From Desulfobaccales bacterium (GTDB lineage Bacteria > Desulfobacterota > Desulfobaccia > Desulfobaccales > 0-14-0-80-60-11): DNA of 64,000 nt. Shown piece after piece: positions 51,208 to 60,754 of the stretch. Position 1 is the first letter of the stretch; the number at the start of each line of letters is the position of its first letter. The position numbers and the translations under genes were made by a program. A model generated the notes under the pieces. That model did no database searches, had not been told where the DNA came from, and saw only the letters and a program-made list of their open reading frames with translations. The stretch lies in contig JBBFLF010000008.1 of NCBI GenBank assembly GCA_037481655.1, forward strand, positions 1-64,000, given 5' to 3'.

Positions 51208-51549
51208 TCAATGATGGTGCCCCCCGGGGCTGTGACCGCCGGCGGCCAGATACACCGCCCGTTCCGAACCCGGGTTGGCCAGGGTGTAAGTTTCCTCCCC
51301 CACCAGATAGACGGCCTCCCCGGCCTTCAGGCGCTGCTCTCCCTCGGGGCCGCTGAGCATTACCTCCCCGGCCACCACGCAGATGATCTCCTCATGGCCC
51401 TTCCCCGGCTTCAGGACCCGGCCGCCCTGGCCCGGCTCCAGGTAACCGAAGATGAGATAACAGGCGTGGGTCCCCAGCTCAGCGAGGCCCAGGACGGTCT
51501 CGCCCCCCTCCTCCTTGGCTCGCTGCCACAGATCAAAGGTCCTTTTCAT
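51208..51549 (-). CDS. small cupin-fold protein of the peptide/radical-SAM locus
   Basis: 113 residues from the ATG at 51549 (SD GGGAGGA, 6 bases away), which starts inside the coding end of the radical SAM gene (17-base overlap). Single cupin domain: RVLKPGKGHEEIICVVAGEVMLSG, GEQRLKAGEAVYLVGEETYTLANPGSERAVYLAAGGH. His and Glu of the cupin metal site (GHEEI) are present; the final tail HSPGGHHH is His-rich. It could be a metal-dependent modifying or binding enzyme for the peptide product, or merely co-transcribed; no function is established. Confidence 0.75.
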   Translation of the reverse strand: MKRTFDLWQRAKEEGGETVLGLAELGTHACYLIFGYLEPGQGGRVLKPGKGHEEIICVVAGEVMLSGPEGEQRLKAGEAVYLVGEETYTLANPGSERAVYLAAGGHSPGGHHH

Positions 51550-53047
51550 TCTTCCTCCCAACAGAGGCGGGATTGACCCCGAAGCGGGCGCACATCACCG
51601 GGTCAGGGCCCAGGCCCTCCCCGGCCCGGAAGCGGCAGCCGCCCCGGCACTCCGCCACATATCCGCAGGCGGCGCACACCAGGTCGGTGATGGGATGGTG
51701 GACGAGGCGCCGCCAGCAGGTCTCCAGCCCCTCTCTCAGGTGTCCCAGGGGCCGGTGCGCGTAGAGACCGCACTTGGCCACCCGGCCGTCCGGCAACACC
51801 GCGCACAGGTGACGGCCGCAGGTCCAGCCCGGGGCGGCGCCGTGGGCTGCCTCCCCGAAGGCCAGGTCCAGATACGGCGCCGCCAGCTCCGGGGGCACCC
51901 AGAGATCAGGGTGCTTGGAGAGCCGACCCGAAACGCAGGGCACGTCCAGGCTCCATTCCCGCACCCCCAGCTCCCGAAGCCACCGGCCCATCTCATCCAA
52001 TTCGTGGAGATTGCCGGGATGCACCATGGTGGCCACCGAGACCGCCAAACCCCGATCCTGGGCGCGTTTCAGGCCCTCCACCGCCCGTTTCCAGGTGCCG
52101 GCCCCTCGGAGGCGGTCATGGCCCTCCATCAGGCCGTCCAGGCTCACCTGCACCTCCTGCACCCTAAGCTCCCGCACCCGCTCGGGGCTGAGCAGGGTGC
52201 CGTTGGTGAGGAGCACCGCCCGGATCTCATAATCCGGCAGGGAGCCATTGAGCTCCTGCCATTGGGAATACAGCAGGGGTTCCCCTCCTGAGAGGAGCAC
52301 CCTGAGCCCCTGCAGGTCGGTGAATTCCCGCAGCGCCGCCCGGGCCTCTGCCAACGGCAGGTCCGTGGCCCCGGCATCCCCCAGGTAGCAATGGGCGCAG
52401 CGCAGATTGCAGCGATCGGTGAGCATCAGCTCCAGGTAGCGCAGCGAGGGCACCGGCGCCGGCCGCCAGCGCAATACCCGGGGGGCGGGCTCCAGGCATA
52501 AGGCCAGGAGGGACTCCTTTAGGAGATAGTCCAAAAATTCCGGGTCCGCCTCCGTTGCCAACCCCGGGGTGGTGCCGTCGCAGCGGCTTAAGAACGCAAA
52601 CGCCTCCTCATTGACCTCGTAGAGCTCATCGGCCAGACGGTCATAGAGGCAAGGCACCTCCAGGCGCTTGAGGGAGACGTGTTCCGCCAGGCGCAGATAA
52701 GCGTGCTTCAGGGTATCCCGAAATAGCTCCTCCAGGGAGGCGGCGGACAATCGGCCCTGCACCAGCAATCCGGCCAGGGCCAGGCCTCCGCCGCAGGGCG
52801 GCGCCCCGGCCTCCCCCCGGGCAAAGTCGCAGCCATGCTGCCGGAAGGCGCAATACTGGCACAGCGCCTGCGCCACCGCCGCCATGGCCTCTGAGCCCGG
52901 CTTCGGAGCGGCCCCCTCCAAGGCCGCGGCCAGCTCCGAGCTCTCCTGGAGCAGGTGTGCCGCCACCACCCACCCGAGGCACTTCTCCGCCTCATCCCGC
53001 TCCGGGCGATAGAAAGCGCAGTAGTGACGGCAGATGCTGAGACTCAT
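51533..53047 (-). CDS. radical SAM/SPASM peptide maturase with Cys-rich N-terminus and PqqD-like RRE
   Basis: 504 residues from the ATG at 53047. Residues 5-90 are Cys-rich (CRHYC at 6-10, CQYCAF at 63-68, GCDF, PPCGGG). Residues about 125-190 resemble a PqqD-like RiPP recognition element (LYDRLADELYEVNEEAFAFL, CDGTTPGLA). The radical SAM core has CNLRCAHC (Cys213, 217, 220), a later LSGGEPLL and LLTNGTLL. The C-terminal SPASM domain has Cys410, 415, 426, 444, 458, 461, 467, 471 and 486 (CGYVAECRGGC). This is the layout of enzymes that cross-link or epimerise ribosomal peptides. A 20-codon Cys-rich peptide gene is encoded just upstream. Product unknown. Confidence 0.9.
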   Translation of the reverse strand: MSLSICRHYCAFYRPERDEAEKCLGWVVAAHLLQESSELAAALEGAAPKPGSEAMAAVAQALCQYCAFRQHGCDFARGEAGAPPCGGGLALAGLLVQGRLSAASLEELFRDTLKHAYLRLAEHVSLKRLEVPCLYDRLADELYEVNEEAFAFLSRCDGTTPGLATEADPEFLDYLLKESLLALCLEPAPRVLRWRPAPVPSLRYLELMLTDRCNLRCAHCYLGDAGATDLPLAEARAALREFTDLQGLRVLLSGGEPLLYSQWQELNGSLPDYEIRAVLLTNGTLLSPERVRELRVQEVQVSLDGLMEGHDRLRGAGTWKRAVEGLKRAQDRGLAVSVATMVHPGNLHELDEMGRWLRELGVREWSLDVPCVSGRLSKHPDLWVPPELAAPYLDLAFGEAAHGAAPGWTCGRHLCAVLPDGRVAKCGLYAHRPLGHLREGLETCWRRLVHHPITDLVCAACGYVAECRGGCRFRAGEGLGPDPVMCARFGVNPASVGRKNEKDL

Positions 53048-53092
53048 GGGAAGTTTTTGGCCCCTTGGGACGAGGGAAATTATATCAGCCAA

Positions 53093-53120
53093 TAAAAAAG
53101 GGGACGCCGGGGCGTCCCCT
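53093..53120 (-). terminator. intrinsic terminator between the peptide gene and the maturase gene
   Basis: On the minus strand AGGGGACGCC, loop CC, GGCGTCCCCT, then TTTTTTATT: 10 perfect pairs and a long T-tract. It begins 19 bases after the peptide stop and lies 45 bases before the maturase ATG. Partial read-through would give far more peptide message than enzyme message. Confidence 0.85.
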
Positions 53121-53139
53121 CGGGTCGGTCAGGTGCGAC

Positions 53140-53202
53140 TTAGCAGGACTTGGCGCACTTGCACAGGCCCTGGGAAGCCTTGGCCACTTTCTTGATCTTC
53201 AT
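53140..53202 (-). CDS. 20-residue Cys-rich precursor peptide for the radical SAM maturase
   Basis: ATG at 53202, TAA at 53140-53142. Translation: MKIKKVAKASQGLCKCAKSC. A basic leader-like half (five Lys in the first eight residues or so) is followed by a short core GLCKCAKSC with Cys at 14, 16 and 20. A strong SD (AAGGAGAGGG) stands about 8 bases upstream, the promoter is excellent and a terminator follows at once, so the small frame has every sign of an expressed gene. It is too short for normal gene callers. It resembles PqqA/MftA-type mini-precursors in scale; the Cys positions suggest thioether or metal-binding cross-links (inference). Confidence 0.75.
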   Translation of the reverse strand: MKIKKVAKASQGLCKCAKSC

Positions 53203-53230
53203 GATCCCTCTCCTTCATGGAGTTTTTCTA

Positions 53231-53259
53231 AACATAACTGTGTCAAGAGAGCCTGTCAA
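53231..53259 (-). promoter_or_regulatory. near-consensus promoter of the peptide/radical-SAM locus
   Basis: Minus strand: TTGACA (53259-53254), exactly 17 bases, TATGTT (53236-53231). A second TTGACA overlaps the spacer. Transcription should begin near 53224, 22 bases before the peptide ATG. The rest of the gap (53260-53434) shows nothing recognisable. Confidence 0.75.
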
Positions 53260-56201: not shown

Positions 56202-57314
56202 TTAGAACCCGCGACCGGACATGCGGGCATACAACATGGCCACGGTGCGGTAGACCAGGTGCGCCATCTTGGTGTAGGGCGCAAAGAAGAACAGGATGAA
56301 CACGCTGGTCAGGTGCAGGAAATATACCGGATAGGCCAGGGAGGCAATCCCGGTAAGCCGGAAGAGCCAGGAGGCCGCGCCGGTGATCCCCACCGCCGCC
56401 ACGATGTAGATAAGCTGCCAGTCAAAGTAGGTGCCGAAGCCCGCCTTGTCGGCGTTGGCCTGCCGGGCCACAATGATCTGGTAGATGCCGTAGATCAAGA
56501 GCGCCGTGCCCAGCAGGGCCAACATCTTGAAGGGGCTGAAGAAGGGATAGGGCCCCGGCCAATGGAAGACCCACTCCCTCACAAAGGCCCACGCGGTCAC
56601 CAACCCCAGGGTGATGAAGCCGAAGAGCACCAGCAGGTGGTTGAGGCTGCGGGCGTAAGTGGTTTCACATTTCTTGAAACGGTTGTGCAGGAGAATGTCC
56701 TGGAGCACCGGGATCAGGTTCGCCAGCACGCCCCCCTGCAGTTTCACCGCCCAGGGGCTGGTGTTGATGTCCCGCCAGTAGCGGATGACCCCCTGGGCCA
56801 GGACGAAGACCGCAAAGCCCGCCGCGGCCATGAAGATGATGTCCACCATCCACCAGGGGAACATCTTGGAAAAGACGATGGGCCCCTCGGGGATGGCCAG
56901 GCGGCCGGTGATTTTAAGAGCAGCCAGGAGGAGCAGCACCGGGAAGCCCACCAAGAGGGGCAGGAAGCGGATGTCCCCCACCATGCGGGCCAGCTGCGGC
57001 GGGATGGCATAATTTTCGATGCACATCTGCCTCAGCACCCCCAGCACCTCTCCGGGCTTGGCGCCCCGGGGGCAATGGACCGTGCAGTCACTGCACTGAT
57101 GGCAGAGCCAGATGTCCGGGCTCTTGATGACGTCCTTGATCCCCCACTGGGCCTGGAGCATCTCCTTGCGGGGGAAGGGATGGTTTTCCGGGGTCAGATT
57201 GCAGACCACGGAACAGGTATCGCACTGATAGCACTTCTTGGCGTCCTGCCCCCCGGCGGCCATGATCCGCTGGACGAACTTCAGATCCGGTTTGATGAGG
57301 ATTTCGTCAGCCAT
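56202..57314 (-). CDS. qmoC: quinone-interacting membrane-bound oxidoreductase subunit C
   Basis: 370 residues. N-terminal HdrC-like ferredoxin domain with two [4Fe-4S] motifs, CYQCDTCSVVCNLTP and CHQCSDCTVHCPRG. A HdrE/NarI-like membrane part begins near 115 with about six spans (FLPLLVGFPVLLLLAAL, HLLVLFGFITLGLVTAWAFV). It carries heme b and links the quinone pool to QmoAB, which passes electrons to APS reductase. The gene order qmoABC downstream of aprBA is conserved among sulfate reducers. Final gene of the operon, terminator at 56106-56137. Confidence 0.96.
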   Translation of the reverse strand: MADEILIKPDLKFVQRIMAAGGQDAKKCYQCDTCSVVCNLTPENHPFPRKEMLQAQWGIKDVIKSPDIWLCHQCSDCTVHCPRGAKPGEVLGVLRQMCIENYAIPPQLARMVGDIRFLPLLVGFPVLLLLAALKITGRLAIPEGPIVFSKMFPWWMVDIIFMAAAGFAVFVLAQGVIRYWRDINTSPWAVKLQGGVLANLIPVLQDILLHNRFKKCETTYARSLNHLLVLFGFITLGLVTAWAFVREWVFHWPGPYPFFSPFKMLALLGTALLIYGIYQIIVARQANADKAGFGTYFDWQLIYIVAAVGITGAASWLFRLTGIASLAYPVYFLHLTSVFILFFFAPYTKMAHLVYRTVAMLYARMSGRGF

Positions 57315-57326
57315 GGATCATACCTC

Positions 57327-59492
57327 CTAAAATTCCTTGAAGGGGTTGGGGCCGATTTCTCTCACCCGGTCCACAAACTCCTGCAGGAGGGCGGGCAGGC
57401 GATCGAACTCGGAGATGGCGATCTGGAACTGCTGCACCCGGTCGGCTTCCAGCCCCAGCTTGTCCAGGGTTTCCGAGAGCTTGGTGAGCCGGTAGGCGCA
57501 CAGCTCGCTCCCCTTGGCGAAGTGGCACTGGTAGTCGTCCCCGTATTTGCAGCCCAAAAGCACCAAGCCATCCACCCCCCGGGAGAGGGCGTCGGACACC
57601 CACACCAGGTTGAAGGAGCCCATGCAGCGCAAGGGGATGAAGCGGATGTTGGGCGGCAGCTTCAGCCGATGCTGGGCCAGGGCGTCCAGGGCCGGGTAGG
57701 CGTCGTTTTCGCACACCAGCCCCACGATCATGAAGGGTGCCTTGGGATCCTCTTCGTCCTCGATCTCCTGCACCTCGATGGCCTTGATCATGGAGCCGAT
57801 GATGTCCACGCTGTAGTCCTTGAAGTTGACGATGCGCTCCGGACAGGCCCCCATGCAGGTGGCGCAGCGCCGGCAGCGGTTGATCTTGTAGAAGGGCGTG
57901 CCCTTCTCGTCCTCTTCAATGGCGCCGAAGGGGCATTCCTCGGTGCAGCGCTTGCACTGGGTGCAGCGTTGCATGAAGGGATCCGGGAAGGTGATGTCCC
58001 AGGCCCGGGGATGCACCGCCATGCCCGCCTCGATGTGCTGCAGGGCCTGGATGGCCTTCATGGCCGCGCCGGCGCCGTCTTCGATGGCCGCCGGCAGCCG
58101 CATGGCCTGCCGCACCGCGCCCGCGGCGTAGATGGCCGTCCGCCGGGTCTCATATTGGAAGCAGATGAAGTTGGAGTCGGCAAAGCCGTTGAACAGGTCC
58201 AGATCCGGCAAGCCCGGGCCCTGGCGGTAATCCAGGTTGATGACCGGGTTGTCCGCCGTGGCCGGCACCATGCCGGTGGCCAACACCACCATATCCGCCT
58301 CAAAGGCCACGTTCTGGCCCAGGAGGCTGTCGGTGGCCTTCACCAGGAGCTTGCCGCCTTTGGGCTCCACCCCGGTGACCTCGGCCTTGGTGAGCATGAC
58401 GCCCGGGTCGCTTTGGGCTTCCTTGTAGAAGAGCTCCGCCACCCCCGGCACCCGCATGTCCTTGTAGAGGATCATGGCCACCGCCTCGGGATTCTGCTGG
58501 CGCACATAGAGGGCCTGCTTCAGGCTGGTGGCGCAGCAGAAATCGGAGCAGTAGGGCAGATGCTCCGGATCCCGAGAGCCGGCGCACTGGATGAAGACCA
58601 CGTTCTGGGGCACCTTGCCGTCCGAAGGCCGGGTGATCTGGCCTTTCTTGGCCATCTCCTCCAGCTCCACGTTGGTGACCACATCCGGAGAGAGACCATA
58701 GCCCAGCTTGTCCAGCTTGCTGGCGTCATAGGGGCGCCAGCCTGCGGCCAGCACAATGGCGCCCACCCGGAAGGTCTCCTCCTCGCCGTTGCGGTTGACG
58801 GTGATGTCCAGCAGGCCCGGCTGGCCGGCGGAGGTGATCACCTCGGTGTTGGTCATCACCTTGATCTTGGGCTCGGCCAGGACCTCTTTCACCAAGGCGT
58901 GCACCGGGGAATCCACCAGGGAGGAATAGGGGTAGCTGGTAGGGGTGGACTTGAAGATCTTGGCCCCATAGCCGCCCAGCTGCGCCTCTTTCTCCACCAG
59001 CACCACCGGATAGCCCTGCCGGGCCGCGGTCAAGGCCGCGGACAGGCCCGCCGCGCCGCCACCGATGACCAGGATGGTCTTGGAGATCTCCTCGGTCTGC
59101 CAGGGCTCCGGCAGGTCCGCCTTTTTGATCTTGGCCGCGCCCATGCGGAGATAGTCCTCCGCCAGCATCTGGGTGGGCTCGTCGTTGGGCTCCTGGGTCC
59201 AGGCCACCAGCTCCCGGAGATTGACCCGCTCCACCAGGACGCCGGGGAAGTCGAACTCCTCGTACTTCACCCGGGGCGAGCAGGCGGCGATGAGCACGCA
59301 GTTGACGCCTTCGGCGATGTCGTTCTTGATCATCTCCAGGCCGTCGGGGCTGCAGAGGATGTCGTGCTCCTTGACCTCCGGGATCTTCCCTTCCTTTTTG
59401 GTGATCTTGGCGAGACTCTCGAAGTTCAGGGCGGCCCCGATGCCACAGCCTTTGCACAGATATGCCGCGTATTTCCGTTCTTCCAGTGCCAT
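57327..59492 (-). CDS. qmoB: Qmo complex subunit B (HdrA- and MvhD-like flavoprotein)
   Basis: 721 residues. Starts MALEERKYAAYLCKGCGIG. The flavin motif is VIGGGAAGLSAALTAARQG (near 140). Central HdrA-type Fe-S region includes QCAGSRDPEHLPYCSDFCC and TQCKRCTEECPFGAIEED / CRRCATCMGACPERIV ferredoxin clusters. The C-terminal 150 residues (VGLVCENDAYPALDALAQ, RCMGSFNLVWVSDALSRGVDGLVLLGC) are MvhD-like. QmoB is a cytoplasmic-side electron-transfer subunit between QmoC and AprAB. It overlaps no gene; qmoA ends 2 bases before it. Confidence 0.96.
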   Translation of the reverse strand: MALEERKYAAYLCKGCGIGAALNFESLAKITKKEGKIPEVKEHDILCSPDGLEMIKNDIAEGVNCVLIAACSPRVKYEEFDFPGVLVERVNLRELVAWTQEPNDEPTQMLAEDYLRMGAAKIKKADLPEPWQTEEISKTILVIGGGAAGLSAALTAARQGYPVVLVEKEAQLGGYGAKIFKSTPTSYPYSSLVDSPVHALVKEVLAEPKIKVMTNTEVITSAGQPGLLDITVNRNGEEETFRVGAIVLAAGWRPYDASKLDKLGYGLSPDVVTNVELEEMAKKGQITRPSDGKVPQNVVFIQCAGSRDPEHLPYCSDFCCATSLKQALYVRQQNPEAVAMILYKDMRVPGVAELFYKEAQSDPGVMLTKAEVTGVEPKGGKLLVKATDSLLGQNVAFEADMVVLATGMVPATADNPVINLDYRQGPGLPDLDLFNGFADSNFICFQYETRRTAIYAAGAVRQAMRLPAAIEDGAGAAMKAIQALQHIEAGMAVHPRAWDITFPDPFMQRCTQCKRCTEECPFGAIEEDEKGTPFYKINRCRRCATCMGACPERIVNFKDYSVDIIGSMIKAIEVQEIEDEEDPKAPFMIVGLVCENDAYPALDALAQHRLKLPPNIRFIPLRCMGSFNLVWVSDALSRGVDGLVLLGCKYGDDYQCHFAKGSELCAYRLTKLSETLDKLGLEADRVQQFQIAISEFDRLPALLQEFVDRVREIGPNPFKEF

Positions 59493-59494
59493 GA

Positions 59495-60754
59495 CTACCT
59501 CCCGCCCAGACTGATGAGGCTCTTGAGAGCGGCCCCGGTGCCTTCCTGCACCGACTTGGCCACATCCAAGGGGCTCTTCATGCTGCCCACCGCGGTGATC
59601 CCCTCGGGCAGGAGCTCCGGAATGATGAAGCCTTCCGGGGTGTAGGACAGGGGCAGGGGCAGGGGCGCGTTCTTGGTGGACGGCACCATGCCCACCGCCA
59701 GCACCACCAGATCATACGCCGCGGTGAGCTTGCCCTCGCCCAGGGTGTTTTCCGCCGTCACCACCACGTTGTCGCTGCCCACTTCCTGCTCCACCTTGGC
59801 GATCTTGCCCCGGATGAGCTTGACGCCAGCCATGTCCCGGACCTTCCAGAGGAACTGCTCATAGCGGCCGGGGCAGCGCAGGTCGATGTAGTAGATGTGG
59901 GCCTCGGCCTCCGGGTCCTGCTCCAGGAGGTAGGTGGCCTGCTTGAGGGAGGCCATGCAGCAGATGTAGGAGCAGTAGGGCAGGTGATTCTGGTCCCGGG
60001 AGCCGGCGCACTGCACAAAGGCCACCTTTTTGGGGGCCTGGCCGTCCGAAGGCCGCAGGATCTTGCCGCCGGTGGGGCCGTTGCTGGCCGCCAGCCGCTC
60101 CATCTGCATGTTGGTGATGACGTTTTTCACCCGGCCGAAGCCGAAGTTGTCGGCCTTGCTGATGTCATAGAGGTCCCAGCCGCCGGAGATGACGATGGCC
60201 CCCACCTTGACGTTCAGGGTCTGGGGCTGCATGTCCAGCTCGATGGCCTCGTAGGCGCAGGCCTCCTTGCATTTCTGGCCGCAGTCCCCCACGCAGGCCT
60301 CGGCGTCGATGACATACTTGAAGGGGAAGGCCATATCGTAGGGCAGGTAGGCCGCCTTGGTCTTGTCCAGGCCGTAGTTGAAGGTGTTGACCCGCTCCGC
60401 CGGACAGGCCTCGGCGCAGGCGTTGCAGGCCACGCAGCGGTCATTGACGTAGCGGGGTTTGAGGGTGATGGTGACGTCAAAATTGCCCGCCGTGCCCGAG
60501 ATCTGAGTCACTTCCGCCAGGGTGTAGAAGGTGATGTTGGGATTCTCCCGGATCCGGCGGAAATTGATCTCCAGGCCGCAGGTGGGCGGACAGAGTTTGG
60601 GAAAGTATCGGTGGAGCTGTGCGACCCGGCCGCCCAGATAGGGTTCCTTTTCCACCAGGATCACCTGGGTGCCGGCTTCCGCAGCTTCCAGGGCCGCGGT
60701 CAGGCCGCTCATGCCTCCCCCGATGACCAGAATCTTTTGATCAGCGGCGTTCAC
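59495..60754 (-). CDS. qmoA: Qmo complex subunit A (HdrA-like flavoprotein)
   Basis: 419 residues. FAD site LVIGGGMSGLTAALEAAEAGTQVILVEKEP, the HdrA-type Cys block FPKLCPPTCGLEINFRRI, ferredoxin-like VACNACAEACP, CVGDCGQKCKEACAYEA and QCAGSRDQNHLPYCSYICC. It binds FAD and Fe-S and partners QmoB. The upstream 308-base gap carries the aprBA terminator, so qmo probably has partial read-through or its own promoter. Confidence 0.96.
   Translation of the reverse strand: MNAADQKILVIGGGMSGLTAALEAAEAGTQVILVEKEPYLGGRVAQLHRYFPKLCPPTCGLEINFRRIRENPNITFYTLAEVTQISGTAGNFDVTITLKPRYVNDRCVACNACAEACPAERVNTFNYGLDKTKAAYLPYDMAFPFKYVIDAEACVGDCGQKCKEACAYEAIELDMQPQTLNVKVGAIVISGGWDLYDISKADNFGFGRVKNVITNMQMERLAASNGPTGGKILRPSDGQAPKKVAFVQCAGSRDQNHLPYCSYICCMASLKQATYLLEQDPEAEAHIYYIDLRCPGRYEQFLWKVRDMAGVKLIRGKIAKVEQEVGSDNVVVTAENTLGEGKLTAAYDLVVLAVGMVPSTKNAPLPLPLSYTPEGFIIPELLPEGITAVGSMKSPLDVAKSVQEGTGAALKSLISLGGR

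Follow-up and report, generated by a model that had tools for sequence, protein, structure and literature searches.

A widespread 20-residue cysteine peptide and its candidate radical SAM/SPASM maturase in bacteria and archaea

What is the role of a 20-codon gene that encodes a peptide with three cysteines and that lies beside the gene of a radical SAM enzyme? This question is raised by a locus within the 64,000-nucleotide stretch of DNA analysed here, which we refer to as the window. A preliminary description of the locus had proposed either a new RiPP family or a redox- or metal-binding peptide cofactor. Our analysis favours, with a probability of roughly 0.8, an unnamed RiPP family in which the precursor is modified by a radical SAM/SPASM enzyme with a RiPP recognition element (RRE), and in which the product serves as an intracellular cofactor-like or soft-metal ligand. 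The locus has the following parts.

53231..53259, minus strand: sigma-70-like promoter of the peptide gene, TTGACA-17-TATGTT, with hexamers and spacing kept in congeners
53206..53215, minus strand: Shine-Dalgarno sequence AAGGAGAGGG, 5' of the peptide ATG; strong Shine-Dalgarno sequences are common in homologues
53140..53202, minus strand: putative precursor peptide MKIKKVAKASQGLCKCAKSC, 20 codons, with a basic, leader-like part (residues 1-8) and the core CKCxxSC (residues 14-20)
53098..53121, minus strand: intrinsic terminator of the peptide gene, a GC-rich, 10-bp hairpin
51533..53047, minus strand: RRE-radical SAM/SPASM maturase, 504 aa, with an N-terminal cysteine domain
52718..53047, minus strand: N-terminal cysteine-rich domain of the maturase (residues 1-110, with 7 Cys), which other loci encode on its own or as a cupin fusion
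52487..52714, minus strand: predicted RRE, residues ~112-187 (AlphaFold pLDDT 95, and Foldseek)
51923..52441, minus strand: radical SAM core (PF04055, E=1.7e-21) with the cluster motif CNLRCAHC (C213, C217, C220), invariant in the maturase alignment
51590..51820, minus strand: SPASM domain, C410-C426-C458xxC461x5C467x3C471-C486, invariant in 24 aligned maturases
51208..51549, minus strand: small cupin, 113 aa, overlapping the maturase stop codon

A scan of 3.2 kb gives this promoter as its one sigma-70-like site, against 0.3 expected. Two congeneric genomes retain the terminator and both hexamers at the same distance, with a varying spacer sequence, and more distant relatives retain the terminator as well. 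Among 127 homologous peptide genes, 80 have a promoter-like site on the 5' side (17 after shuffling) and 64 have a terminator-like site on the 3' side (6 after shuffling), and a strong Shine-Dalgarno sequence precedes 123 of 131 distinct genes. The promoter, Shine-Dalgarno sequence and terminator reported earlier for the 20-codon gene are all present in the window, and from these sequence signals the gene looks like an independently transcribed unit. An Rfam search of the window returned no RNA family, and a search of a plasmid collection returned no match. Upstream in the window, at 56202-60754 on the minus strand, lies a QmoABC/HdrA-like cluster, which fits a sulfate-reducer-like host.

We collected homologues of the peptide gene with DNA patterns of the form ATGANNRTNNNNARRNTN-N21-TGYMRNTGY-N9-TGYTRR. 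The peptides are nearly always 20 residues long and follow the consensus M-K-I-x-K-V-x-[KR]-x5-C-K-C-x2-S-C. Across 110 distinct 20-residue peptides, Met1, Cys14, Lys15, Cys16 and Cys20 are constant, the constancy of Met1 and the three cysteines being built in because the patterns impose their codons. Lys15 (restricted to MRN codons), Ser19 and position 8 are not fixed by the patterns, and here the peptides have Lys15 in 110 of 110, Ser19 in 103 and Lys or Arg at position 8 in 108; Lys5 is found in 109 and Ile3 in 104. Comparison of all pairs of 128 distinct genes gives 92,430 differences at third codon positions against 47,014 at first and 47,413 at second positions, and this approximately twofold excess is the pattern expected of a translated peptide.

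Variation within the family is limited. The window peptide has Ala at position 17, and Jordarchaeia carry a 21-residue form that ends in CKCxSDC. One genome (G436; L277, 10186, minus strand) encodes near its maturase a divergent peptide, MKIRKVKHHLNGHCECKGSC, which has no evident Shine-Dalgarno sequence and is accompanied by a canonical copy in the same genome, indicating that CKC is not absolute. Peptides that start with M-T-I, M-S-I, M-V-I or V-R-I also occur, and leaving out such starts accounts in part for genomes that seem to have no peptide next to the maturase. A pattern that allowed TGN for each cysteine matched only TGY in true matches, so no selenocysteine or in-frame TGA core was found. 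No NCBIfam model matches the window peptide (E<=1) or five variants (E<=10).

The distribution of the peptide follows that of the maturase. A profile built from the 24 aligned maturases detects family members in 38 of 395 genomes from the window's phylum, with a clear gap between the weakest best match (E=4.7e-98) and other radical SAM proteins, none of which falls below 1e-60. The separate DNA pattern for the peptide picks out 38 of these genomes, exactly those that carry the maturase, and when reversed it has no match in any of the 395. The pattern had been loosened after M-T-I and M-S-I forms were seen in carriers, so that the sensitivity of 38/38 is not independent, but the absence of matches in all 357 non-carriers is. 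A stricter earlier pattern matched 15 genomes, all of them maturase carriers (hypergeometric p 3e-17, overstated, as are such p-values generally here, because the genomes are related). Counted by genus, maturase and peptide are each present in 23 of 245. A further 40 genomes have a peptide locus with no recognised maturase beside it, and 32 of them encode a single maturase elsewhere or beyond the fetched stretch; the remaining 8 are drafts with no maturase at E 1e-60 and are probably incomplete assemblies. Peptide frames unconserved near maturase homologues, or broken by mutation, had been named as evidence that would count against a RiPP; both were sought and neither was found. As far as sequence can tell, a conserved, gene-encoded precursor goes together with a candidate modifying enzyme, as is expected of a RiPP, and because the co-occurrence is exact, the proposed pair of enzyme and substrate can be put to a direct test in vitro.

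A scan of GTDB species matched at least 118 stretches, about 101 of them with an in-frame peptide; most of the others match by chance and out of frame, which the variable gap permits. Among the matches listed, bacterial carriers include many Desulfobacterota/Deltaproteobacteria and Nitrospirota/Nitrospirae, as well as Nitrospinota, a Spirochaete, an Actinobacterium and a Bacillota genome, and archaeal carriers include Geoglobus and Mnemosynella (Archaeoglobi), Methanoperedenaceae and the Asgard groups Jordarchaeia and Helarchaeota. Most of 33 genomes examined have one peptide gene and four have two or three, counts that depend on the pattern, since further copies surfaced once other start contexts were allowed. 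The expectation that the precursor is encoded next to its maturase holds in the window but does not describe a strict gene cluster, as the peptide gene is often unlinked; in one single-contig genome (G024) it is ~21 kb from the maturase gene.

What kind of enzyme is the maturase? PF04055 is its sole Pfam match, and the CxxxCxxC core is joined by a seven-cysteine SPASM domain (CX9-15GX4C-CX2CX5CX3C-C) whose cysteines are invariant in the alignment. The AlphaFold model of the whole protein has a pLDDT of 89; Foldseek places SkfB at the top, with significant matches also to CteB, SuiB with bound precursor, PqqE and ChlB, and it ranks anSME, which converts Cys to formylglycine, as well. Sequence profiles likewise match SkfB, PqqE, CteB and SuiB. 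The PqqD-like segment has no match in Pfam or among PDB sequences. When residues 112-187 were folded alone (pLDDT 95), Foldseek matched them to the RREs of TbiB1, TruD, lasso B1, PbtF and SuiB, with weak E-values (best 0.019) and probabilities of up to 1.00; the model thus predicts a PqqD-like RRE fold. The RRE-radical SAM-SPASM layout first read from the sequence is therefore upheld by PF04055, the invariant SPASM cysteines and the fold match to leader-bound structures. Against NCBIfam, the maturase and five relatives give generic SPASM and radical SAM matches far under every cutoff, and by these profile scores the maturase is an equivalog of no NCBIfam family. No model matches the peptide either, and no named RiPP class fits; the preliminary description, too, could not match the CxCx3C core to a named class.

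Residues ~1-110 of the maturase form a separate cysteine-rich domain that was missing from the first reading and that has no Pfam match. The domain is found near 89 of 124 maturase loci (a partly redundant set); counted by frame, it stands alone 65 times and is fused 28 times to the maturase and 3 times to the cupin. A cupin homologue lies near 42 of the 124 loci, a count limited by the flanks available. The cupin gene of the window (51549-51208, minus strand) does overlap the maturase gene, as had been described, and its match to PF07883 (E=4.1e-6) is slightly below the gathering score. The fusions of the cysteine domain with maturase or cupin tie the three proteins into one machinery. In Nitrospirota (L066 3942-3280; L104; L125; L291) the cysteine domain is divergent from the maturase and has a cupin either fused to it or encoded after it, and 2-oxoacid:ferredoxin oxidoreductase genes often follow. 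Archaea and some bacteria have short, one-repeat cysteine domains (CxxCxFYx...LEC[GA]A[FY]), for instance upstream of the maturase in L012 and at L034 6251-6487 and L092 1698-1934. Recurrent neighbours such as genes for 2-oxoacid:ferredoxin oxidoreductase, rubrerythrin and RuvA/RuvC differ between lineages, and we do not regard them as partners. In the neighbourhoods analysed there is no recurrent gene for an exporter, a protease or immunity.

Nitrospirota also have dispersed paralogues of the peptide with His, or once Tyr, at position 17, giving cores such as CKCHSSC. A heavy-metal P-type ATPase is encoded near 7 of 13 His/Tyr17 loci and near 0 of 86 others, the single raw match among the latter (at L108) having no CPx motif and not being counted. 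All four of the ATPases tested score above the cutoff of the copper-translocating P-type ATPase model. Met-rich or SHOCT genes lie within 1.5 kb of 7 of 13 His/Tyr17 loci and of 0 of 85 others. A second, non-His17 peptide lies beside the maturase in six of these genomes (G413, G415, G438, G439, G443 and G445). The association of His17 with copper ATPases comes from one phylum and may reflect few ancestral events; we take it as a lead, not a proof. Of the redox- or metal-binding cofactor proposed in the preliminary description, the metal side thus gains circumstantial support from the CKCH paralogues that adjoin copper ATPase genes, and the redox side gains no such support.

Several known systems resemble this one in part. 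The maturases of sactipeptides and ranthipeptides (SkfB, CteB and their kin), the best structural and profile matches, share the RRE, the radical SAM domain, the seven-cysteine SPASM domain and a cysteine-rich precursor, a similarity of enzymes that suggests a linkage type only by analogy; here, in contrast, the precursor has 20 residues, is often unlinked, crosses domains and does not resemble a secreted antibiotic, and a cysteine domain and a cupin are added. PQQ biosynthesis (PqqA-PqqD-PqqE) likewise combines a tiny precursor, an RRE and a SPASM radical SAM enzyme, with a possible cofactor product in common, but our peptides have no conserved Glu-Tyr crosslink pair, the RRE is fused to the enzyme, and the maturase relatives tested score 50 to 83 bits with the PqqE model (cutoff 381), outside PQQ. 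Mycofactocin (MftA-MftB-MftC) offers a small conserved precursor and the logic of a redox cofactor; the maturase reaches 75 bits with the MftC equivalog model against a cutoff of 265, which excludes it from that system, and the peptide has no MftA-like C-terminus. Like methanobactin and other copper RiPPs, the His17 paralogues are cysteine-based peptides near copper genes; unlike methanobactin, the examined loci display no exporter and receptor set, and the enzyme is a radical SAM protein in place of an MNIO enzyme. The SbtA/SbtM thio(seleno)oxazole system and other Haft-type radical SAM peptide systems share the short cysteine peptide and the dedicated SPASM maturase, but the maturase scores 52.5 bits against a cutoff of 350, and the TGA-tolerant pattern found no selenocysteine form. 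A SPASM-matured RiPP is of a kind already known; what is new is the minimal size, the near-invariance across domains, the combination of one maturase with dispersed precursors and the set of cysteine domain and cupin.

We propose that a separately transcribed mini-gene would supply the 20-residue precursor, and that in all probability the RRE of the maturase binds its basic N-terminal part (MKIKKVxK) and the radical SAM/SPASM enzyme goes on to alter the C-terminal core CKCxxSC; co-occurrence alone does not prove such an enzyme-substrate pair. By analogy with the related enzymes, the modification would most likely consist of one or more cysteine thioether links, which we hold with moderate confidence. 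The N-terminal cysteine domain and the cupin would act as accessory proteins of the maturase machinery. With less confidence still, the mature peptide may stay in the cell as a cofactor-like or soft-metal (Cu(I)-type) ligand, or as a redox ligand. More tentatively, and at somewhat under even odds, one maturase might serve several dispersed precursors in trans, with CKCH peptides for copper and canonical CKC peptides for a general function, redox or metal-related, in anaerobic metabolism, making this a radical-modified peptide cofactor or ligand used at several sites in the cell and across domains.

The arrangement of a short cysteine frame, a terminator directly 3' of it and then the maturase gene could also be that of a cis-acting leader peptide whose cysteine codons govern transcription attenuation of the maturase. 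This is highly improbable, and we reject it: amino acids are conserved over the whole peptide across domains while third codon positions vary, many genomes have the peptide gene downstream of the maturase gene, on a separate contig or ~21 kb off, and second copies occur in copper loci. An unmodified mini-metallothionein or metallochaperone, with the maturase acting on another target in the same metal-handling trait, would account for the likeness of CxCx3C to thiolate metal sites and for the His17 copies adjoining copper ATPases; it is nevertheless unlikely, given the exact co-occurrence with the maturase in 395 genomes, an RRE fold resembling leader-binding domains and a conserved MKIxKV N-terminus that looks like a leader and not like a metal site.

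A RiPP whose modification is other than a thioether is the strongest of these alternatives, and we regard it as quite possible though not as the better choice. Candidates are cysteine oxidation of the formylglycine type, a C-C or C-O crosslink via Lys15 or Ser19, or release of a small cofactor by cleavage, on the model of PQQ or mycofactocin; the ranking of anSME and PqqE by Foldseek, the invariant Lys15 and nearly invariant Ser19, neither imposed by the pattern, and the PqqA-like size all point this way, against which thioethers fit better with the three invariant cysteines and with the likeness to SkfB and CteB, both sactionine synthases, and no Glu/Tyr pair is conserved as in PqqA. The SPASM RiPPs known from Firmicutes are mostly bacteriocins, which speaks for an exported bacteriocin or signal; we consider this very improbable here, since most of the genomes examined have a single peptide copy, and since a sequence near-constant from bacteria to archaea and the lack of a recurrent transporter or immunity gene beside the maturase at the examined loci make an intracellular ligand likelier than an antibiotic. 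The reading as a new RiPP family is supported by the 38/38 co-occurrence, the conserved frame and the RRE-radical SAM-SPASM anatomy.

In the literature searched, mostly outside subscription titles, there is no description of the peptide or of this layout, and none of the PDB sequences describes the peptide; a term search in selected papers on RREs and radical SAM enzymes found no mention of cupins or of Desulfobacterota. RiPP mining relies on a precursor that adjoins its enzyme, and an unlinked 20-residue precursor is likely to be missed by standard mining and by gene callers. A sequence that stays nearly constant between Desulfobacterota, Nitrospirota and Asgard archaea resembles PQQ more than an antibiotic, and a true cofactor or metal ligand would add a peptide-based player to organisms of the anaerobic sulfur, iron and methane cycles.

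Some loci have further features of arrangement. Tandem or near-tandem duplicates of the peptide gene occur at L137, L018, L274 and L081, with Lys17 and His17 copies adjoining in the first two. In Desulfarculaceae-like genomes (L120, L033 and L137), a gene for an ArsP_1-type permease, identified by Pfam in L120, lies ~2-3 kb 3' of the peptide gene.
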